The position numbers and the translations under genes were made by a program. The notes beneath the pieces are model-generated. The model was not told the origin of the DNA. It did not search any database and saw nothing but the letters and a program-made list of their open reading frames with translations. This document shows, one piece after another, positions 2,472-11,341 of a DNA stretch of 64,000 nt. This DNA is from Methanolobus psychrophilus R15 (GTDB lineage Archaea > Halobacteriota > Methanosarcinia > Methanosarcinales > Methanosarcinaceae): the NCBI GenBank assembly GCA_000306725.1, contig CP003083.1, forward strand, positions 310,001 to 374,000, given 5' to 3'. Each line of letters opens with the position of its first letter. The stretch's first letter is position 1.

Positions 2472-2481
2472 CTATTTATTA
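2472..2481 (+). promoter_or_regulatory. TATA-like box for the integrase gene
   Basis: TATTTATTAG lies about 35-44 bases before the integrase ATG and 12 bases inside the left junction. A transcription start about 25 bases downstream would leave a leader of about 15 bases containing AAGGA. The site sits next to attP, so excision and integration would not separate it from the gene. Confidence 0.4.
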
Positions 2482-2515
2482 GTCATATCCCAATATAACA
2501 AAGGAAGCCAAAGAA

Positions 2516-3778
2516 ATGAATAGAAACGACCTTGCTAATGAGCCAACTGTAAAGAAGCTTTTTGCCTTGATATCCCCTGCGGACAGGACCCGCGATAACT
2601 ACCTTTCATCATTGATGCATTATACCGATTTCACCGGGCTTACACCAACGCAGTTAATAGATGAAGCCAACGCAGACATACGCGCAGGCAAGTTAATGAT
2701 TGAACGCGGCGTATTTACAAGGATACCAAACTTTAGGATGCACCTTGAATCAACCAGCTTAACAGGCAGGCCAAGAGCACCCGCGACAGTTCACAAATAC
2801 GTCAATTGCATATCTTCTTTTTATCAAGCGTTTTATGTTGATATCCCAAAGATGCCACGCGGAAGGAACCGGACCAAGCCATTAAAAGAGAATCTTAAGA
2901 GAGCTGACAAGGAAGATATACAGGCATTGCAGGATGTAACCAGCTTAAGAGACAATGCAATTATGCTATGTGGTGTTTCCTCCGGTATGGGAGCGGCAGA
3001 GATAGCAAGCCTTACACTTCAAGCCTTTAAGGAAGGATACGATCCTGCAACGGGGATAACTACCTTTGATATGCGAAGGCGTAAGGTAGGAGTAGATTTT
3101 ATCACTTTCATAAGCCCGGAGGCATCGCAGGCAGTTCTTAAATATATTGAATGGCGTGACAGGCCAGCCACTACAGGCAGACAAGGCGACATTTTAGAGT
3201 ATGAGAAGCGCAGGACCACACCAGGGAGTTATCTCTTTGTATCCGCGAAGGTTGGCAAGGACTATTTACTTACACGCAATGAAGAAAAGCGACAATGCAC
3301 CGCGCATTCTATTGTTAGGATATATCAGAGGATAAGAGCGAATGCAGGATTCGAACGGACACCGGGACATTTCCACCCGGTAAGATCACACAATATGCGC
3401 AAATTCTTTAACAGCAATCTTAAGAATGCGGGATGTGATGGTGATTTAGTGGAGTATTTCATGGGTCACACTTTGGACGGAAGCAAGGGTACATATTATG
3501 AAGGCGATCCCGTAAAGCTCCGCGAGATTTATAAAAAGTTCATTCCCTACATAACGATTAGGAAAGATTTAGATGTTTCTGAATCTCCTGAATATCAGAG
3601 CATAAAGAAGGAAAACGTCATATTGCAGGCAGAGACAGCCCGGCATGTTGTGGAACGTTCGGAATTGTCAGAAATACGCAAGGAAAACGAGGATATGAAA
3701 AATAAGTTAGATGATATGAAAAATATGATAAATGAAGCAATCGCGGCGAAGGTTGCCGAAATGCTGAAAAAGCAATAA
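2516..3778 (+). CDS. Tyrosine recombinase / integrase
   Basis: The 420-residue protein has an N-terminal SAM-like core-binding domain (about 1-125), a catalytic domain (about 140-345) and a C-terminal coiled coil (about 355-420, rich in E, K and M). Catalytic-domain motifs are SHNMRKFF (the HxxR box), FMGHTLDG and the tyrosine motif GTYYEGD. The box I segment reads SSGMGAAEIASL, so the position normally holding the first catalytic Arg appears to be Gly. The gene sits just inside the left junction with AAGGA ahead of the ATG. It very likely integrates and excises the surrounding element. It is full length and not split by the att site, unlike the SSV-type integrases of Sulfolobus. Confidence 0.93.
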   Translation: MNRNDLANEPTVKKLFALISPADRTRDNYLSSLMHYTDFTGLTPTQLIDEANADIRAGKLMIERGVFTRIPNFRMHLESTSLTGRPRAPATVHKYVNCISSFYQAFYVDIPKMPRGRNRTKPLKENLKRADKEDIQALQDVTSLRDNAIMLCGVSSGMGAAEIASLTLQAFKEGYDPATGITTFDMRRRKVGVDFITFISPEASQAVLKYIEWRDRPATTGRQGDILEYEKRRTTPGSYLFVSAKVGKDYLLTRNEEKRQCTAHSIVRIYQRIRANAGFERTPGHFHPVRSHNMRKFFNSNLKNAGCDGDLVEYFMGHTLDGSKGTYYEGDPVKLREIYKKFIPYITIRKDLDVSESPEYQSIKKENVILQAETARHVVERSELSEIRKENEDMKNKLDDMKNMINEAIAAKVAEMLKKQ

Positions 3779-3789
3779 ACTTTTTTCCC

Positions 3790-3817
3790 ATGCGGTGACA
3801 CCTACACCACACCGCAT
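3790..3817 (+). terminator. Hairpin after the integrase gene
   Basis: ATGCGGTG and CACCGCAT form a perfect 8-bp stem with a 12-base loop, starting 12 bases after the integrase stop codon. A run of six T lies just before the stem rather than after it, so it may instead protect the 3' end. Confidence 0.5.
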
Positions 3818-3919
3818 ATTTAAAAATTTTACATTTACGTTTCTATTTCAAATTTAATTTAATCGTGATATACTGACATTGCTATTTTTATAAATATCCA
3901 TTTTATACATTTTTTGCAT

Positions 3920-3962
3920 ATATTATATTAAATTACCCTCATATGAGGGATATTATATTAAA
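3920..3962. repeat. Palindrome CCCTCATATGAGGG between two copies of ATATTATATTAAA
   Basis: The perfect 14-bp palindrome CCCTCATATGAGGG (3936-3949) is flanked on both sides by the direct repeat ATATTATATTAAA, in the 340-base gap between integrase and the RHH gene. The rest of this gap (3818-4074) is AT-rich and I see no gene in it. The symmetry suggests a protein-binding site, perhaps regulatory or part of a replication region. Confidence 0.5.
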
Positions 3963-4074
3963 ATCGTTATGCATTGACTGTATAGTATAAAGTCCTTATG
4001 TAGTATGCGATATATGATTAAACCGCATATAGGCGACGTTGCGAATGCAAACCTTTATTAATTGGACACGTCAC

Positions 4075-4100
4075 ATTATATTTATCATGCGATTATCGCA
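4075..4100 (+). promoter_or_regulatory. Promoter and candidate operator of the RHH gene
   Basis: A TATA-like box (ATTATATTTAT, 4075-4085) is followed at once by the inverted repeat TGCGA-TTA-TCGCA (4088-4100), which ends about 20 bases before the ATG at 4121. A dyad between the TATA box and the probable transcription start is the usual place for a repressor site. Autoregulation by the RHH protein encoded next door is the simplest reading. Confidence 0.45.
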
Positions 4101-4120
4101 CGATTATAGGAAGTGACCCG

Positions 4121-4252
4121 ATGAAACAAAAAATTAGCATTACACTAGATGAAAACGTTATAAACGATATGGATTTGATTAGGAATAACACACCTAGAAG
4201 CACATTTATTAACAGAATGTTGATCAAGACCGTTGTTGAAAACAAATCATAA
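4121..4252 (+). CDS. Small ribbon-helix-helix DNA-binding protein
   Basis: A 43-residue protein beginning MKQKISITLDENVINDMD, followed by STFINRMLIKTV. A basic/alternating beta strand (KISITLDE) followed by two short helices is the classic ribbon-helix-helix (CopG/MetJ-like) layout, at about the minimum size for the fold. AGGAAGTGA precedes the ATG. Proteins like this are common repressors in archaeal plasmids and viruses. A dyad in the promoter region is a likely target. It heads the small-gene cluster that runs to 5685, but a hairpin and a 156-base gap separate it from the next gene. Confidence 0.8.
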   Translation: MKQKISITLDENVINDMDLIRNNTPRSTFINRMLIKTVVENKS

Positions 4253-4270
4253 TCATAAGGGAATAAGTCA

Positions 4271-4305
4271 CCCGTCACTGAATGTTAGCGCATTTCAATG
4301 ACGGG
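4271..4305 (+). terminator. 12-bp stem-loop after the RHH gene
   Basis: CCCGTCACTGAA (4271-4282) pairs with TTCAATGACGGG (4294-4305) with one A.C mismatch and an 11-base loop. It begins 18 bases after the RHH stop codon. There is no T-run immediately after it, so attenuation or mRNA protection is as likely as termination. Confidence 0.5.
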
Positions 4306-4408
4306 AAACCTAAAAGCGGCGCGTTTAACCTCGTTTGCCATGAAAACATATGTTTTTCGTGGTATATTGCTTTTTTGGTTTACCTGACTATTTCCGGGAT
4401 ATTGGAAA

Positions 4409-4531
4409 ATGTCAATTAATGAATTTATAGAACTCGAAGCGCAGAAACGCTATAATGCAATTTTAGAAGAATCGAAGGACACGGGACGCGACCCTTTAGA
4501 AATCGCACGAGCGCAGGGTATAGACGTATGA
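4409..4531 (+). CDS. 40-residue hypothetical protein of the element
   Basis: A short, mostly helical and charged protein (MSINEFIELEAQKRYNAI at the start, EIARAQGIDV at the end). Its stop codon overlaps the ATG of the next gene by four bases (ATGA), the same coupling seen further down the cluster, which is the best support for it being real. GGAAA precedes the ATG. I do not recognise the family. The C-terminal half could be a small helix-turn-helix-like segment (PLEIARAQGI), but it is too short to be sure. Confidence 0.6.
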   Translation: MSINEFIELEAQKRYNAILEESKDTGRDPLEIARAQGIDV

Positions 4532-4779
4532 CTTCAAAGCAAACTATCCTGAGGGCCGTACATCGTACATGTCTTGCATGTTGCGGCAATAGTCGCCGGG
4601 ACGTTCTAAAATGTAAAGTTTTTGATTGTAGCCTGCACCCATACAGAAACGGAACCGACCCTAACCCGAATATAAGCGGCGGGAAGCTGAGAAGCGTATA
4701 TATTGAAGAGTATGAAGAGGACCCGGAAGAATTGGAAGAATCGGAAGCAAGGGGGTCAGTATTTGATGACGATGATTAG
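4528..4779 (+). CDS. Small Cys-rich (zinc-binding) phage/plasmid-type protein
   Basis: The 83-residue protein has a zinc-finger-like N-terminal half: AVHRTCLACCGNSRRDV, then KCKVFDCSLHPYRNG. This C-x2-C...C-x4-C-x-L-x-PYR pattern is seen in a small protein common in bacterial and archaeal prophages. The C-terminal third is strongly acidic (repeated E, D and a DDDD end). It overlaps the preceding gene by four bases and the following gene by 14. A role in nucleic acid binding is inferred from the cysteines; the actual function in these prophages is not established to my knowledge. Confidence 0.75.
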   Translation: MTSKQTILRAVHRTCLACCGNSRRDVLKCKVFDCSLHPYRNGTDPNPNISGGKLRSVYIEEYEEDPEELEESEARGSVFDDDD

Positions 4780-5014
4780 ACGCATGAGGCGGGCCCGCGC
4801 ACAGGTGACAGCCGACAGGGACGAAGCGCGCGGGCAGATATGGGCCCGGCGAGATAAAGACCGGGGAAGAGTAAACCCGTACATTACTATGACCTTCAGA
4901 GTTATAAACCTGACTGTCCACAAATCCAGAGTTAAAGAATTGCAGGACATACGCGCGCAGCGGACGTATACCAACGTACCGCGCAACAATATTTTTACAA
5001 GACCGGAGAAATGA
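4766..5014 (+). CDS. 82-residue basic hypothetical protein
   Basis: A very basic, Arg-rich N-terminal half (RRMRRARAQ and RGQIWARRDKDRGR) is followed by a more ordinary C-terminal half ending PRNNIFTRPEK. I chose the ATG at 4766 over the upstream one at 4703 because GGGGGT lies about 10 bases before it and the overlap with the previous gene shrinks to 14 bases. Its stop overlaps the next ATG by four bases. A nucleic-acid-binding role would fit the charge, but no family is recognised. Confidence 0.6.
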   Translation: MTMIRRMRRARAQVTADRDEARGQIWARRDKDRGRVNPYITMTFRVINLTVHKSRVKELQDIRAQRTYTNVPRNNIFTRPEK

Positions 5015-5685
5015 GAATGATAAACGACAACGAACACGACAACTGGCACAGCCTGACGAACGAACAATTAGAACCCGTTGACGAATACGGCGAGGACTTC
5101 AAGCGGGACTTTTACCGCGTTGCGGATGCATTGAAATGGGATAAAGATAAACCGCCGATAAAGGACAACAGTCAACGACCCGCGGAGTTTATCCGTAAAA
5201 TCATATACGATCACGACGCGGAATATGAAATAGACAGTACCGCAAAGACAACGGACGCTTTATTATTACGTGGCCGTCGCGCATTTCTTAAGCGTCTTGA
5301 CGACATGGAAATGGATGAACTAAGGCAACGCATACGCATGTTTAGAAAAAGCGATGTAGCCGCATGTTATGACCGTGTTAGTATCAATGAATCTGTAGAT
5401 GCTGATATCAATATAAAGACACCAGGATTAAGATATCAGGAGGGAGTTTCAAGAATTGGAAAAAGCAATAGAAATAAGAAGGTGCATTATCACGAAATCG
5501 AAGACATAAAAGAAGTCCTCAAAATACTTGATGCTATCGGACTTGATGCAAGTAAGGGTATTGAGTTCCTTGTATTGTGTGCTATCGAGGGCACGACCTA
5601 TGCAAAAGAAATAGGAGCGCAGGATAGAATAAAGAGAATTGTAGATAGCGTAATGGATGGTATCAAGGACATCATACACGCCTAA
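5011..5685 (+). CDS. 224-residue hypothetical protein, last gene of the element's plus-strand cluster
   Basis: A soluble, mostly helical protein with no signal peptide or membrane segment. GGAGAA precedes the ATG, which overlaps the previous stop by four bases. Visible segments include RAFLKRLDDMEMDELRQ near residue 90 and EDIKEVLKILDAIGLD near residue 168. I do not recognise it. It is the largest non-integrase protein of the cluster and lies directly before the 8-bp repeat arrays, a position often taken by a replication or partition protein. That role is only positional inference: no Walker, helicase, primase or HUH motif is visible. Confidence 0.7.
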   Translation: MRMINDNEHDNWHSLTNEQLEPVDEYGEDFKRDFYRVADALKWDKDKPPIKDNSQRPAEFIRKIIYDHDAEYEIDSTAKTTDALLLRGRRAFLKRLDDMEMDELRQRIRMFRKSDVAACYDRVSINESVDADINIKTPGLRYQEGVSRIGKSNRNKKVHYHEIEDIKEVLKILDAIGLDASKGIEFLVLCAIEGTTYAKEIGAQDRIKRIVDSVMDGIKDIIHA

Positions 5686-5724
5686 TCAAATAAGATGTTC
5701 TTAACTCTCATTACTTTTTTAATA

Positions 5725-5828
5725 GGACATCCGGGCATTAGGGCATTAAGACATTAGGACAACCGGGCATTAGTCCAATAAGACAATAGTCCATTCGGGC
5801 AATTATACAGTCGGGCATTAGTCCACTG
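5725..5828. repeat. Array of thirteen 8-bp degenerate tandem repeats
   Basis: From 5725 the sequence divides exactly into thirteen 8-mers: GGACATCC, GGGCATTA, GGGCATTA, AGACATTA, GGACAACC, GGGCATTA, GTCCAATA, AGACAATA, GTCCATTC, GGGCAATT, ATACAGTC, GGGCATTA, GTCCACTG. The CA at positions 4-5 is kept in all thirteen. The period is exactly 8 with no drift, and frames carry TAG/TAA stops, so it is non-coding. A candidate iteron array or protein-binding platform. Confidence 0.85.
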
Positions 5829-5937
5829 ACCGATTTAATGTTATAATAATGCGATATATAATAATAGAACAATTAACATTATGTATTTTATTATCCTATT
5901 CATAAATGTATAACTTATTTTTATATGAATCGCCTGA
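5829..5937. other. AT-rich segment between the two 8-bp repeat arrays
   Basis: About 110 bases made up mainly of A and T, with runs such as TTATAATAATG and ATATATAATAATAG and no open frame of note. Flanked by repeat arrays on both sides, it has the layout of a DNA-unwinding region of a replication origin, though this has not been tested. Confidence 0.5.
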
Positions 5938-5985
5938 TATCATTAGGGCAGTCGGGCAATAGGGCAATAGGGCAGCCGGGCATAG
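5938..5985. repeat. Second array of 8-bp repeats
   Basis: Six further 8-mers in the same orientation and register: TATCATTA, GGGCAGTC, GGGCAATA, GGGCAATA, GGGCAGCC, GGGCATAG. They share the GGGCA core with the first array 110 bases away. The following region to 6162 is AT-rich with no recognised gene. Confidence 0.8.
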
Positions 5986-6162
5986 TGCCCTAAAGAGTAT
6001 ATAATAGGCAGAATTAAACTTATGTAGAAAAATATAGAATTGGTTTTTAAATATTATAATAATAAAAGAATATATTATATTCCTACATGAACTCAGGACG
6101 CGATAAAACGTCGCTATGGAACATTAAAAATATATTAATATATATAATATATTTGTTATGGG

Positions 6163-6546
6163 TTATTTCATGATGACTTCGGACACTCCCTGACCGCCAC
6201 CACCGCCACCACCGAAGATCAACCATACAATAAGGACGATACCTGCAATTACAAGCATAGGCATCATTAAGGACTTCCATCCGTCCATCCCTAACGCGCG
6301 TCTTATCTTTTCCTTTTCTATAGTTACCTGACCCTGCACGAAGTACGGGTTAGTCTCTTCGATGTAATCACATTGTGCCGTCATGTCAAGACTAATGTTC
6401 TCACGTAGTAGACAATTGTCACCCGCGAACGAAGCACGTATCGTGTTGAAGTCATCTATCGGTAATGTGATCACGTCCGTTCTTCCATCCTGCCGAGTAT
6501 ACCCAACGTCCACCAGTCCATCATTACGCAATACTGCCAAACTCAT
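6163..6546 (-). CDS. Membrane-anchored protein with a C-terminal polyglycine tract
   Basis: The 127-residue protein has a soluble N-terminal part (about 1-90), one hydrophobic helix (about 93-111, MMPMLVIAGIVLIVWLIF), then seven consecutive glycines and a short tail QGVSEVIMK. There is no signal peptide, so the soluble part is likely cytoplasmic with a C-terminal anchor, or this is a small virion-like membrane protein. The glycines are encoded by a 6-bp-like GGT/GGC repeat and may vary in length. It is the last of three tightly packed minus-strand genes (three bases from the previous stop). I recognise no family. Small membrane proteins in this arrangement are common in archaeal viruses, which is only an analogy. 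Confidence 0.65.
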   Translation of the reverse strand: MSLAVLRNDGLVDVGYTRQDGRTDVITLPIDDFNTIRASFAGDNCLLRENISLDMTAQCDYIEETNPYFVQGQVTIEKEKIRRALGMDGWKSLMMPMLVIAGIVLIVWLIFGGGGGGGQGVSEVIMK

Positions 6547-6549
6547 TTC

Positions 6550-6693
6550 TTACCGTCTCCTTGATTTCCCTTTCTTGCATAGTGTCACGGTGACAGGCCC
6601 AGGCATTGCGGGCAACACGCAGACATCAAGGTTACTATTCCCTGTTACTATCGCGGTTTTAATACGCTGTCGCCGTTCGTCCGTGTCTGTCAT
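6550..6693 (-). CDS. 47-residue hypothetical protein
   Basis: A small protein that starts MTDTDERRQRIKTAIVTGNS and ends in a basic tail (KKGKSRRR). It lies one base after the stop of the 29-residue membrane peptide gene and three bases before the start of the 127-residue gene. The spacing on both sides supports a genuine operon. GGAACAAT lies just ahead of the ATG as a weak ribosome binding site. No family recognised. Confidence 0.5.
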   Translation of the reverse strand: MTDTDERRQRIKTAIVTGNSNLDVCVLPAMPGPVTVTLCKKGKSRRR

Positions 6694-6694
6694 A

Positions 6695-6784
6695 CTAATT
6701 GTTCCTTCGGTTGACCAGTATCATAGACCACAAAAGCACCCATAGAACAATTGTGATCAATATGAACCCGGTAAAGTCACACAT
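6695..6784 (-). CDS. 29-residue single-pass membrane peptide
   Basis: The encoded peptide is almost entirely one hydrophobic helix (FILITIVLWVLLWSMILV) with a short polar start MCDFTG and a basic end NRRNN, giving an N-out/C-in or N-in topology that cannot be settled by eye. It is the first of three closely spaced minus-strand genes, ending one base before the next ATG. Very short, so it could be chance; the packing argues for it. Confidence 0.45.
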   Translation of the reverse strand: MCDFTGFILITIVLWVLLWSMILVNRRNN

Positions 6785-7312
6785 ATGTACATAATATGCC
6801 ATCCTTGCACATATGCTTAACTGAAAGAGCATTAATGACCAAAAATGTACAATTTACTGCACATTTAAATAAATTTACAAAGAAAATACCCGATTGCAGC
6901 GCGCCACTGGTTTTTCATACATATTGATACAAAAAGAATAATGTTTCTTCACTCAAAACGAGTTTACGAAGTAGTGCAGGAAACCAGTATAAACCCGCGT
7001 AATAATTACACGCACATACACGTTATAACTGTATACATATATTTGATATGTAGTGTCCTTCGATTGCCTGTATACGCGGATATAGGGGTATTTGATAACA
7101 AAGCAGGAAGATATAAACGGAAAATAGAAAAAGGGATTAAGGGTTTATGTTATCTTTTAAGATAATGATTTAAACGCGCTACAATCGCTTTAAATGAGCT
7201 CATGCGCATAAACACCCGCGCGAACACAAATTAACGCGATACGCGCGGCCAGCGTGAATCCTGTAAGCTAAATAACTGATTAATTCAGCTATGAATTTAA
7301 CAAGTTCATTTT
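6785..7312. other. Gap with no supported gene
   Basis: AT-rich. It contains a TATA-like ATTTAAATAAA near 6863 that could serve the minus-strand small-gene operon. An open frame of 74 codons at 6941-7165 (plus) lacks a ribosome binding site and family resemblance, so I do not call it. The stretch near 7220-7260 is GC-richer (ACCCGCGCG, ACGCGCGG) with no clear structure. Confidence 0.4.
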
Positions 7313-7430
7313 TTAATCAATTATGCAGACGTGCCCGTTTTTCTCTACAAGTTTTAACTCCGTGCCTTTTTCCATCCCTTCAAGACACCGGATACAGGGT
7401 AAATACATGACCATACCATTTTAACATAAG
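7313..7430 (-). pseudogene. Decayed AbrB/SpoVT-like gene, remnant 1
   Basis: The minus strand encodes a C-terminal end reading KGTELKLVEKNGHVCIID and stop. It closely matches the end of the second remnant (KGKELKLVERNGYVCIVEG, 10995-11147). Upstream, the match to the second copy continues only by changing frame: the LKGWKK segment is present in a different frame, and the A-run after GGATGG is shorter than in the other copy. A 33-codon frame from an ATG at 7414 remains open. I read this as a broken duplicate of a small AbrB-type DNA-binding protein gene. Confidence 0.55.
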
Positions 7431-7471
7431 GGCTATAGATAGTGATTCTACAATGTCGAATAGTTACCTTT

Positions 7472-7702
7472 CTATTTCTGCACAATACTAAAAAACAGAC
7501 TCAATATAAATATAAAAATCAATATTAGTAATAATGTAATTGGTTTATTATGGTTTTCATTTTCAGAATTAATACCATTTCCATTTATTCCTGATTGATA
7601 ATTATTGTTTATTTCTAAATATGTATGTTTATTGTATAATTTTTTATAATTGCATTTTTTACATATTAAATAATTGTGATTATGATCATAGGGTATTTTA
7701 AT
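7472..7702 (-). pseudogene. Zinc-ribbon membrane protein gene, 3' part (interrupted by the IS630 element)
   Basis: This part encodes 76 residues: IKIPYDHNHNYLICKKCNY with a CxxC knuckle, a polar Asn-rich middle, and a C-terminal membrane helix (ITLLLILIFIFILSLFF). The first half of the gene, with the other CxxC, lies at 8802-8921 beyond the insertion sequence. Removing the IS and one TA copy joins ...CERCKEEL to IKIPYD... in frame, giving a 116-residue protein with a two-knuckle zinc ribbon and a C-terminal anchor. Four codons from the IS end now precede this part, so a TTG-initiated 80-residue product is possible. Confidence 0.75.
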
Positions 7703-7704
7703 TA

Positions 7705-8801
7705 TAGTGTTCAACGCAACTTACTACACGTATTAATGTTTATCTTATCTTATGGCGGGGAAAGAACAAATTCTGATTGACCGAAAGGTAATTCTCGACG
7801 AGATTAACGATTTGATCACACACGAGAACAATTCAAGAGTGTTGAAAAGGCTCTATTTTGTTAAATTTAGATATTTAGGGGATTCTGTAGAAGAAGCTGC
7901 TATTAAAGTAGGAGTGACTAAGAAAACAGGATATTGCTGGCAAGAAAGTTGGAATAAAGGCGGCTATGCCGCCTTAATGCCAAATTTTGGCGGAGGTAGG
8001 AAATCCAAACTTACTGATGAACAAAAAAAGGAATTAAGAGCTTTGTTGGAAAATAAGGATTACTGGACTACAAGAGAAGTCTGGAAGTTAATAAAGGAAA
8101 AATATGGCGTAGAATATTCAGAGAAACAAGTAGGAGTTATACTTCACAGTTTTAACATGTATCACTCAAAGCCATATCCCCTTGACTACAGAAGACCTAA
8201 AAACGCTGAAGAGATCTTAAAAAAAACTAACCGAAGCAATTCCAAAAAATATTGGTCAAGATGAGCAGTATATCATAGGTTTTCTGGATGAATCTTCACC
8301 ACAAACAAAAGCAAACACGCAAAGATTATGGTCATTTAAAAAACCGTTGATAATAAAAAATACGGATTACGTTAAAGCAAATGCATTTGCGTTTTATTCG
8401 ATCAACGGGAACAGTATCATTGATTTTATGAAAAGCTCAAAAACAGAAGATGTGTGTGAATTCCTGGAAAAAATTGTAGAGCAAAACCCAGGGAAAAGAA
8501 TAATTCTTGTTCTCGATAATGCAAGATCGCATCATGCAAAGAAAACGATAAGTAAAGCGAGAGATTTAAAAATAACACTTGTGTTCCTACCACCTTATTC
8601 ACCTGATCTAAATCCAGTAGAATTTGTCTGGAAAACAATCAAAAGAGAAGTGTCAGTCAAATTTGTCAAATCAAAAGAACATTTGAGGAATATTATCAAA
8701 ATGGAATTTATGAGGATAGAGAGCTCATTATCGTTTGCAAAAAAATGGATAGAAACATTTAATGCACAAATAAAAAGTGTGATTTGTTGAGTTAGGGACT
8801 A
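7705..8801 (+). mobile_element. IS630-family insertion sequence, 1097 bp
   Basis: The ends are TAGTGTTCAACGCAAC (left) and, read inward from the right, TAGTCCCTAACTCAAC: 16-bp imperfect inverted repeats with 11 matches. A TA dinucleotide flanks each end (7703-7704 and 8802-8803), the target duplication typical of IS630/Tc1-mariner elements. Precise removal rebuilds an uninterrupted host reading frame, which fixes the ends. It contains a single transposase gene in two frames. Confidence 0.88.
7752..8790 (+). CDS. IS630-family transposase, in two frames joined at an A8 run
   Basis: The first frame (7752-8264) encodes the N-terminal helix-turn-helix/winged-helix part. The second frame, which continues to 8790, encodes the DDE catalytic domain with Asp in IGFLDESSP, Asp in ILVLDNARSHH and Glu in PDLNPVEFVW. 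All three catalytic residues are present. The frames join at eight A's (8219-8226): a +1 shift there gives EILKK-LTEAIPKNIGQDEQ, the expected continuous protein of about 345 residues. With seven A's the gene would be in one frame. Programmed slippage on the A-run, as known in other IS families, and a simple inactivating insertion are both possible. Confidence 0.85.
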
Positions 8802-8921
8802 TAATTCTTCTTTGCATCTTTCGCAAATAAATAAATCAGTTATTTTTCTAAAATCAGAATTTTCCCGTAACATCTTTCTTGAAAGTTTTTCATCAAACCA
8901 CTTATCATTATTTTTCCCCAC
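8802..8921 (-). pseudogene. Zinc-ribbon membrane protein gene, 5' part
   Basis: A GTG start with GGGTGAT just ahead of it opens a 40-codon frame ending ITDLFICERCKEEL at the IS boundary, where the next codon (TAG) comes from the insertion sequence. The CERC knuckle pairs with the CKKC knuckle in the 3' part to form a plausible zinc ribbon. The rest of the gap (8922-9093) is AT-rich and shows no gene. Confidence 0.7.
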
Positions 8922-9093
8922 AATATCACCCTACTTTTTTACATACTAGATTTCTGGGTTATATTCGACACATTTTGTGTGTACTGTATATTAACATAAT
9001 GATTTATGTTTGGATTAGTGTAATCTCTATCTACTAAAGACATTCCCAAACCTCTATGATTATCTCATGCTCCTATATTGGAAGCAAAAAAAG

Positions 9094-9116
9094 AGAGAAG
9101 GTTTATTGCCTTCTCT
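9094..9116 (-). terminator. Hairpin plus T-run after the PEF-CTERM gene
   Basis: On the minus strand AGAGAAGG-GCAATAAA-type sequence forms an 8-bp stem (AGAGAAGG with CCTTCTCT, 7-base loop) followed at once by TCTTTTTTT. The stem overlaps the stop codon of the surface-protein gene, so the last codons are part of the hairpin. Confidence 0.65.
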
Positions 9117-10632
9117 TAAAGAACAGAGCTAGTCCTAGAATTGCTATCATGGGGAGTGCAATTGTGGGGAACTCTGGGATTTCTTGAGAACCACCATTTC
9201 CTCCATTGTTGCTGCTGCCATCGCTGCAAGCCATCCATATGCTTTCAGGTGCTCCTGGCAATCTTGTAACGTGGAGAACAACAGAATATCCATTATCATT
9301 CTTCGGTAGCACACCATCCCATTCACAATCAACGATAATTTTTACATATTGCACTGTCTGCTGATTACCGGGTGCCCTGTCGACCTGGGTTAGCATTGCA
9401 CCAAAACCCGCATTGCCCTCACCTTTATCTTCCTCCCATTCCCATTCAACATTTGTATTATCAGACTCAACACCTAAAATACAATCGGGATCGATATTTA
9501 GCAATATTGTCTTGATGTTTCCAGATCCGATTGGTTCAAGTAGCTCAATCTCAATTGAGTTTGTAAATGTTTTAACAGAAATGTTGATGTTACCATTGTA
9601 ATATTCGTTTGTATTTTTCTCTGTCAGGTAACAGGTTGTTATTGGGGATACACTCACCACTTGTGCAGGATTTCCATTCAATTCAAATATGAAGCTTCCC
9701 GGATAAGAATAGATTATTCCATTATTATAGACAGGCCCCAACAAACCGCCGTAATTGTGAATGGTATTGTGATTGTAGACGTAAAAAGACAACGTCCCTC
9801 GATTGAACAGTGTGCCACTATTGCTAATGCTGTATCCGTCTACCGTACCGTTGTTATAAAAATTGCCACTGTTCATTACTTCGCCTATAATATGTTCGTT
9901 GTGGAAAGTGCCGGTGTTACTTACATACATTTCTACCGTTCCATAATTGTAGACAATTCCGTGGTTATCTAAACCCCATGCCAGCGTTCCAGTGTTGCAA
10001 ATGGTCCCCGTATTTTGAATCTTGCCGTTGAACATACCGTGGTTATATATTTCTCCACTTCCCTCCACTGTGTAGCTCGAATTAAACACCCCGGTGTTGT
10101 TAATTGTTCCTTCATTTCCCACATCAAAGTGCGTAGAAAACGTGTTGAGGTTATTCAGCATTCCGTTGTTTGTTAACCTTTCATAAATGGCCATGTGCCC
10201 AGCGTTATCAATGGTGCCATTGTTTGTAAGGTACCATATGCCAACTGCGCCACCTGGTAACACACTAAGGTTATTGTAATTCAGAAAACTGGTGGGTGCT
10301 CCCCCGAAAATTCCAGTTACCTGCATGTTACCATAGTTTCTAACAAAGAGTGAATCTCCATAAAAGGTTCCACCCAACTCAAGTGAACCGCCATTGTCAA
10401 TTACGATCTCGGGCTGATTCATCCCTTGTAGGGCCCCACCGGGCTCCACTATTAGTTTCCCACCCGGCTGGATTATGAATGGGCCGTGATCAATATATAG
10501 GATATCTCCGTCTCCTACCACAAAGGTTTCCCCGTCAGCAATTGTACCCGGATTTGTCAATTCGGCTGCACTTACCATCCCACATAGCGAGATGAGCACA
10601 GCTATTACAATCATATATATTTTCATTTTCAA
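9103..10632 (-). CDS. Secreted beta-solenoid surface protein with PEF-CTERM anchor
   Basis: The 509-residue protein starts with a signal peptide (about 1-22, ending MVSAAE). Residues about 110-325 consist of some ten loosely repeated units of 16-22 residues built on N-x-G-T-(IVL)-x-N-x-G, as expected for a right-handed beta-solenoid. A globular domain follows (about 330-470). The end has IPEFPTIALPM, a hydrophobic stretch and KRRQ, a PEF-CTERM sorting signal (PEF at 486-488) handled by an archaeosortase. GGAAGGT precedes the ATG. It lies inside the mobile element as probable cargo: a surface or adhesion protein. Its intactness inside an otherwise decaying right half is notable. Confidence 0.85.
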   Translation of the reverse strand: MKMKIYMIVIAVLISLCGMVSAAELTNPGTIADGETFVVGDGDILYIDHGPFIIQPGGKLIVEPGGALQGMNQPEIVIDNGGSLELGGTFYGDSLFVRNYGNMQVTGIFGGAPTSFLNYNNLSVLPGGAVGIWYLTNNGTIDNAGHMAIYERLTNNGMLNNLNTFSTHFDVGNEGTINNTGVFNSSYTVEGSGEIYNHGMFNGKIQNTGTICNTGTLAWGLDNHGIVYNYGTVEMYVSNTGTFHNEHIIGEVMNSGNFYNNGTVDGYSISNSGTLFNRGTLSFYVYNHNTIHNYGGLLGPVYNNGIIYSYPGSFIFELNGNPAQVVSVSPITTCYLTEKNTNEYYNGNINISVKTFTNSIEIELLEPIGSGNIKTILLNIDPDCILGVESDNTNVEWEWEEDKGEGNAGFGAMLTQVDRAPGNQQTVQYVKIIVDCEWDGVLPKNDNGYSVVLHVTRLPGAPESIWMACSDGSSNNGGNGGSQEIPEFPTIALPMIAILGLALFFKRRQ

Positions 10633-10994
10633 CCAACCTTCCTAATCTATGCAGGACTATCCTGCAATTCCAATAAAATGGAAACTATCTTACTTGCTTA
10701 TTAATGTTTCTAAATTATTTTCACTCACTAATATAACTTAATAATTATCAAATCCGAATGTTAAGGTTTCAACTTTCCTTTATATACTCAAAAACCACGA
10801 CATCACGTTATGATATTTCTTCAAAGAAATAAACTCTTACAAATGTTTGATCCCTAAAAGTAGACTAACAACTTAATATACGAAGGAGTGATTTTAAACT
10901 CGTTTACTCAACAGGATTCAGCGCAAGAAGCTTCGTAAAACACCCATATTGAACTATTGAAGACAAGTTAGGACAGCATACACCCCAATCCATG
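10633..10994. other. Gap upstream of the PEF-CTERM gene
   Basis: AT-rich sequence that should hold the promoter of the surface-protein gene (minus strand). I see no gene. The part near 10960-11010, read on the plus strand, resembles the tail of a tyrosine recombinase (EDKLGQHTPQSMLSFYN) but is only about 20 codons long and follows a stop codon. Confidence 0.35.
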
Positions 10995-11147
10995 TTATCC
11001 TTCTACAATGCAAACATACCCGTTTCTTTCAACAAGTTTAAGCTCTTTTCCTTTTTTCCATCCCTTTAAAGTGCAGATATCTTTTGAGATCGTAAGCGTA
11101 AATTGTCCGTTCTTATTCTCTTGTAAAACTGCTATAATATCACACCC
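10995..11147 (-). pseudogene. AbrB/SpoVT-like small DNA-binding protein, remnant 2
   Basis: An open frame of 50 codons reads IIAVLQENKNGQFTLTISKD, then a GWKKGKELKLVERNGYVC segment. This is the swapped-hairpin AbrB/MazE/SpoVT pattern (N-G-Q-x-T-L-x-I-x-K-D). No ATG, GTG or TTG start is present before the in-frame stop at 11148-11150, so it is either a 5'-truncated gene or uses an unusual start. It lies about 110 bases from the right junction of the element and is homologous to remnant 1 at 7313. Confidence 0.55.
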
Positions 11148-11258
11148 TTAAATCTAATATTAATCTTAATATTAGAAGTAATAGTATTTATTCTTAATCG
11201 AATGTTCAACATTGACATGAGCATATAAAGATAATGGGATATACCCAAAGTTATAAAT

Positions 11259-11264
11259 ATTCCC
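11259..11264. repeat. attR: 6-bp direct repeat ATTCCC at the right end of the element
   Basis: The right-hand copy of the junction sequence. To its right the chromosome continues with AGGGGGATATAGCC, the azlC codons for GYIPL on the minus strand. Over 14 bp the two att copies match at 11 positions (ATTCCC-CT-GGGAAT versus ATTCCC-AG-GGGGAT). Confidence 0.85.
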
Positions 11265-11341
11265 AGGGGGATATAGCCAAAGAAAACCGGGAGCGTTGTC
11301 CTGAGTGCGCTCAGGAAGAGTTTTTCACTCTCATGGGTCAT
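11261..11341 (-). pseudogene. azlC: azlC, 5' portion (codons 1-27)
   Basis: The minus strand encodes MTHESEKLFLSALRTTLP and then VFFGYIPLG, the standard AzlC N-terminus, ending exactly at the attR core. Beyond the junction the frame runs on into element sequence to a stop at 11132, giving a 69-residue chimeric frame of no evident meaning. The native azlCD promoter must lie upstream of here (11342-11501), so transcripts from it would enter the element from its right side. Confidence 0.9.

Follow-up and report, generated by a model that had tools for sequence, protein, structure and literature searches.

Two arrays of phased 8-bp units flanking a very AT-rich core occupy a 477-bp non-coding gap (5686-6162) between converging genes of an integrated element resembling a plasmid or virus, and this gap is tentatively read here, at slightly less than even chances, as an iteron-type replication origin or replication-control region. 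An origin is the best supported of the readings considered because the site is convergent and intergenic, its core is very AT-rich, and repeat clusters occupy the corresponding position in two related elements. The main support, which is indirect, comes from this synteny with sister elements carrying repeats 3' of Rep-like genes.

Phased octamers around an AT-rich core

Coordinates refer to the window, i.e. the whole 64-kb stretch of DNA analysed, which belongs to a genome assembled as a single contig of 3,072,769 bp. The gap contains the following features:

5725-5828, plus strand: array 1, 13 contiguous 8-bp units, 10 of them different, with CA invariant
5829-5937, no strand: AT-rich core, candidate unwinding region, 109 bp, 20% GC
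5946-5985, plus strand: array 2, five GGGCA octamers
5986-5993, minus strand: inverted terminal unit TGCCCTAA, one copy directly after array 2, mirroring TTAGGGCA at 5943-5950

The phasing of the octamer arrays is far beyond chance. Array 1 reads, in order, GGACATCC GGGCATTA GGGCATTA AGACATTA GGACAACC GGGCATTA GTCCAATA and then AGACAATA GTCCATTC GGGCAATT ATACAGTC GGGCATTA GTCCACTG, and array 2 reads GGGCAGTC GGGCAATA GGGCAATA GGGCAGCC GGGCATAG. The thirteen 8-mers in strict phase that the initial annotation had described were borne out both by the lag-8 matches of array 1 (54 of 96, versus 36.2 ± 3.4 in dinucleotide shuffles with a maximum of 49, n = 1000) and by its longest in-phase dinucleotide run, which is CA repeated through all 13 units, whereas no run in 500 shuffles exceeded 7. 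Moreover, array 1 gives the strongest period-8 signal of the whole window, besides which a weak super-period of 32 bp, or four units, can be detected (uncorrected p = 0.01). Six more 8-mers had been counted from 5938 to 5985; five of them (5946-5985) are good units, but TATCATTA at 5938 is not. The two arrays are offset by 221 bp (27 x 8 + 5) and share no common 8-bp register.

A core GGGCA/GGACA had been proposed as common to all units, which holds for 7 of the 13 units of array 1 and, as GGGCA, for array 2, but CA at unit positions 4-5 alone is invariant. The cores of array 1 are GGGCA (five units), GGACA (two), GTCCA (three), AGACA (two) and ATACA (one); the GTCC units are not taken as inverted GGAC units, since the CA beside them keeps its orientation. 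Over the 18 units, all 38 departures from the consensus are confined to six positions, leaving C4 and A5 untouched (chi-square p = 0.002), an optimistic value since the test ignores the shared ancestry of the units, so that the real support for a constraint at these two bases is weaker. A pattern for four in-phase units has 11 hits across the 3.07-Mb genome, all of them within arrays 1 and 2, and a search for the array in other methanogen elements, as initially suggested, showed that the octamer motif is absent from 148 relatives; neither a second strain nor a relative bearing the array was found. A position weight matrix scan of the element for more in-phase sites, including the region upstream of its ribbon-helix-helix (RHH) gene, returned none that was convincing.

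The roughly 110 bases of AT-rich DNA noted between the arrays correspond to the 109-bp core, the best 100 bp of which contain 16% GC and rank among the most AT-rich 0.08% of the window. The region was said to be non-coding with stops in every frame, which is nearly so, the exception being a 44-aa ORF with a TTG start on the minus strand that spans 5738-5872. The gap shares with iteron-type origins a clustering of direct repeats in non-coding DNA and, next to it, an AT-rich candidate unwinding region, the 20% GC core.

Divergence of the units

The arrays might alternatively be a decayed octamer satellite, expanded by slippage, then altered by point mutations and devoid of function, a reading that we consider unlikely. 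In this regard, array 1 was compared with a set of at least ~220 octamer arrays that matched the motif RKVCANYN x7 or similar patterns in bacterial and archaeal genomes and viral contigs. Such arrays are common in public genomes, and the 32-bp super-period of array 1 fits a segmental duplication, both points being in favour of a satellite. Against it, the mean unit identity of array 1 is 4.86/8 with 10 of 13 units distinct, nearly the lowest among the ~220 matches listed, most of which exceed 6.5/8; moreover, C4 and A5 are unsubstituted despite the 38 changes elsewhere (by the optimistic test given above), and the arrays flank the AT-rich core on both sides. Array 1 lacks the near-identical units that define an octamer microsatellite or VNTR, and because its units have diverged, an ordinary microsatellite, the alternative that had been named beforehand, has become unlikely as judged from the sequence.

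The array itself had only unrelated octamer satellites as counterparts in other genomes, among the matches listed. A few of these are also diverged yet in phase, namely L350, L215 and L223 (a Pirellulaceae MAG), L184 and L192, which gives the satellite reading some further room. The array of L350, a phage contig, lies at about 5768-5904 on the minus strand and also contains GGGCATTC/GGACAGTT units.

The host element

Relatives keep azlC, an amino-acid exporter gene, intact, which indicates that an element of ~8.8 kb has been inserted in this gene. In the window azlC is found in two pieces, a C-terminal part at 1803-2471 and an N-terminal part at 11207-11341, and the joined AzlC query aligns unbroken in two relatives (G016, residues 1-245, 90%; G006, residues 1-244, 85%). 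An att core CCC..GGGAAT is located at about 2455-2471 and 11258-11275. The element and those of its genes that are most relevant here are:

2472-11257 (approximate inner bounds), no strand: integrated mobile element of ~8.8 kb, splitting azlC
2516-3778, plus strand: tyrosine integrase, 420 aa (PF00589, E 2.4e-9; phrog_216, E 4.5e-17)
4121-4252, plus strand: 43-aa RHH protein, candidate array binder (strand-helix-helix model with pLDDT 95; alignment)
4409-4531, plus strand: 40-aa ORF, conserved beside the integrase in sister elements L023 and L024
4528-4779, plus strand: 83-aa Cys-rich protein, conserved in Methanosarcinaceae elements
5011-5685, plus strand: 224-aa orphan protein (p224), ending 39 bp before array 1
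6163-6546, minus strand: 127-aa membrane protein converging on the array, with a homolog in the inovirus-like provirus L158

The rightward genes follow in the order integrase, RHH protein, 40-aa ORF, 83-aa Cys-rich protein, a 103-aa ORF and the 224-aa orphan, after which come the arrays; leftward genes beyond them encode the 127-aa membrane protein, two small ORFs, an IS630-like insertion and a surface-type protein. Since the two gene sets converge on the 477-bp gap, the arrays are downstream of both, and a simple promoter operator is therefore unlikely. Homologs of the integrase occur in 46 of 149 genomes of relatives; the 83-aa protein, ~51% identical to the copy of element L149, is matched at E <= 0.1 in 20 of 90 genomes.

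Several other features of the element and its relatives were observed. A near-perfect palindrome around CCCTCATATGAGGG (3931-3954), a possible operator, lies in the gap between the integrase and RHH genes. The IS630-type transposase (7752-8790), in two ORFs of 170 and 147 aa and probably frameshifted, has been inserted in the element, which also carries a 509-aa surface-type protein (9103-10632) with what looks by eye like a PEF-CTERM C-terminal signal. In two other loci (L153 and L154), a member of the 83-aa family directly precedes a gene that, by eye, resembles a large terminase.

Domain and phrog searches of the proteins of the element recognised no helicase, primase or HUH Rep, and therefore the element may be defective or rely on another replicon. 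No ParA-like ATPase was matched among nine element proteins, and no Zot/pI morphogenesis ATPase was found in the element, this ATPase being present in L158 and L027.

Folding of the gap

It is very improbable, the least probable of the readings weighed here, that the gap, flanked by converging genes, acts through DNA or RNA structure, for instance as a terminator, a G-quadruplex or the packaging hairpin of an inovirus-like element. No canonical G-quadruplex motif (G3N1-7) other than array 2 occurs in the window; array 2 also terminates in a small hairpin (z -2.6, fold of 5938-6010), and the 127-aa gene is shared with the inovirus-like provirus L158 (28% identity, E 6.5e-8), all of which would suit such a role. 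On the other hand, array 1 lacks consecutive G-runs yet keeps CA and phase, the RNA fold of the region reaches a z of only -1.7, an Rfam search gave no match, and searches of the element turned up neither a Zot/pI nor an HUH Rep gene. The AT-rich core folds as DNA into no unusual stem-loop (z -0.1), and a PADLOC search produced no match. The provirus L158 (4616-13253), with a Zot/pI ATPase, resides in another Methanosarcinaceae genome.

GC skew was discarded as evidence for an origin: its cumulative maximum near 6175 reflects gene orientation only, because the skew of non-coding DNA is about zero on either side.

Candidate binding proteins

Two proteins of the element are considered here as possible binders of the octamers. 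The 43-aa RHH protein is a natural candidate, by analogy, because RHH proteins coat contiguous short repeats. It matches the NCBIfam model of MazE-family antitoxins with an E of 8e-5, below the cut-off of that model, and a Foldseek search with its predicted structure gave no usable match, the query being too short. The RHH-type ParB of plasmid pSM19035 acts on at least four contiguous 7-bp repeats, or heptads (PMC9499535), and the archaeal virus RHH protein F55 acts on ATAGATAG tandem repeats (PMC5569661). An 8-bp period that rotates around the helix had been regarded as odd, an argument that is not compelling, as RHH partition proteins use contiguous repeats of 7 bp (PMC9499535).

In this line, the octamers could serve as an operator or centromere-like array, coated by adjacent dimers of the RHH protein as happens at pSM19035 parS heptads or MetJ boxes, for maintenance, silencing or copy control and not for initiation. 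This is possible, though we doubt it, and it ranks above a decayed satellite. The element does encode a confident RHH protein, and proteins of this family are known to act on contiguous short repeats, as just described; an RHH protein in cis and at least four contiguous short repeats (13 and 5), two features of RHH centromeres, are both found. Moreover, among 38 loci a further cluster of four AGGGCA in 120 bp occurs solely in L149, the element whose RHH and 83-aa homologs are the closest, a post hoc observation; this cluster (9788-9946) precedes a UvrD-type helicase gene but is not 8-bp phased. Also unfavourable to an RHH operator or centromere are the missing ParA-like ATPase, the position of the arrays away from promoters, where both flanking genes end, and the lack of an in-phase array before the RHH gene itself. 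A classical par site in particular is argued against by the fact that no ParA was found.

The second candidate, the 224-aa protein, has no recognisable domain, initiator domains included, and its single-sequence fold is unreliable (pLDDT 39). Convincing homologs were found neither in viral contigs, plasmids and phages nor in 237 class-level genomes; the class-level matches were weak, and those inspected were mostly histidyl-tRNA synthetases in our own reading, which were judged chance matches. Nor does the 224-aa protein resemble the Rep-like proteins encoded by the sister elements. This protein holds the place that Rep-like genes have in L023 and L036, and may in this respect be a candidate initiator.

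Repeat clusters in sister elements

The closest relative of the host element, L023, is found in the same genome, has an integrase 65% identical and shares the 40-aa ORF. One of its genes encodes a 590-aa protein that has a TFIIE-like winged helix and, as judged by eye, a P-loop; directly 3' of this gene, nine copies of a 19-bp repeat, GGGGATTTTGGTATAGGCA, lie in both orientations within 500 bp (4314-4813; C1:1100313-1100812) and nowhere else in 11 kb. This cluster is a strong candidate for the origin of that second element. Likewise, an 11-bp array in L036 (9002-9153), made of TGTTTATGGTA and inverted copies, is located directly 3' of a replication-type gene of the DUF927/Cch-HTH kind and faces a converging gene.

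A repeat z above 10 was obtained for 7 of the 115 non-coding gaps of the host element and related elements: the octamer gap and one each in L023, L026, L027, L029, L032 and L149. Four of the six others adjoin replication-type genes (L023, L027, L029 and L149). No such repeat cluster was found beside a large replication-type or comparable gene in L024, L025, L034 and L040. A repeat cluster beside a replication gene is a frequent but not universal feature of related elements.

Two inovirus-like elements, L027 and L028, carry a G2P-type HUH Rep gene, beside which a 9-bp GGTTAAATA array has several copies in L027 (6240-6330) and about one in L028 (2990-3130), next to a conserved long hairpin AAGGGGAGGA...TCCTCCCCTT. 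That such an array varies in copy number is a further point that a decayed satellite would accommodate.

The gap as a candidate origin

Altogether, the possible origin put forward in the initial annotation is retained as the best-supported reading by virtue of its location, its AT-rich core and the repeat clusters of sister elements, on grounds that are circumstantial. We infer a binding protein, melting and origin activity at 5686-6162, where the octamers would work like an iteron array. An element-encoded DNA-binding protein, either the 224-aa or the RHH protein, would occupy neighbouring octamers in a row, with one CA-containing site every 8 bp. In this way a nucleoprotein filament would be built to either side of the AT-rich core, and the core would then melt and admit host replication proteins once the element has been excised as a circle.

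A bolder proposal, which we regard as quite improbable, is that phase-locked but sequence-diverse octamer arrays constitute a class occurring in unrelated genomes and selected for their spacing and two-base core and not for their full sequence. In this element such an array would serve a novel initiator, the 224-aa orphan, as its docking track, and the replicon would be a minimal archaeal one without any known Rep family.

If the gap is an origin, it would offer a small, testable replicon for Methanosarcinaceae, and it would mean that a CA step is enough to mark a contiguous 8-bp array for an initiator. The presence of 19-bp repeats in the same genome, and of 11-bp and 8-bp repeats, at the same place in sister elements would open a route to studying how repeat origins diverge.

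Comparison with known systems

RHH proteins include the repressor of plasmid pRN1, ORF56. The minimal replicon of this plasmid consists of a small repressor gene, a rep gene and an origin 3' of rep (PMC4234260), an arrangement resembling that of the present element, with a small repressor gene upstream and the candidate region beyond the 3' end of the operon's last gene. Unlike the octamer gap, which has repeats and no significant stem-loop, the origin of pRN1 is a 100-nt stem-loop without iterons, and because a stem-loop is missing (core z -0.1) the octamer region is not of the pRN1 type.

The parS site of pSM19035 (PMC9499535) is similar in its contiguous short repeats, of 7 bp in that plasmid, and in the RHH protein of the element, but here the unit is 8 bp, the conserved core is CA instead of the heptad consensus, and a ParA-like ATPase is missing. 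The operators of F55 in SSV1 (PMC5569661) also involve an RHH protein of an archaeal element and tandem repeats; they are repeat pairs at promoters, unlike the 13 and 5 octamers, which are away from promoters. Bacterial octanucleotide VNTRs have the same 8-bp period with nearly identical units, as opposed to the 10 different ones among the 13 of array 1, and an inovirus provirus would be expected to encode a pI/Zot ATPase, which the octamer-bearing element does not appear to have.

Iteron-type origins of plasmids and viruses differ from the octamers in that the unit of the latter is only 8 bp, contiguous and strongly diverged, within an element without a recognisable Rep. The likeness to them is found in the direct repeats flanking an AT-rich segment beside a gene cluster, and in the repeats of L023 and L036 occupying the same place, 3' of Rep-like genes. 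The octamer arrays are real and appear to be an unusual variant of repeat-array replicons, with a putative function as a candidate origin.
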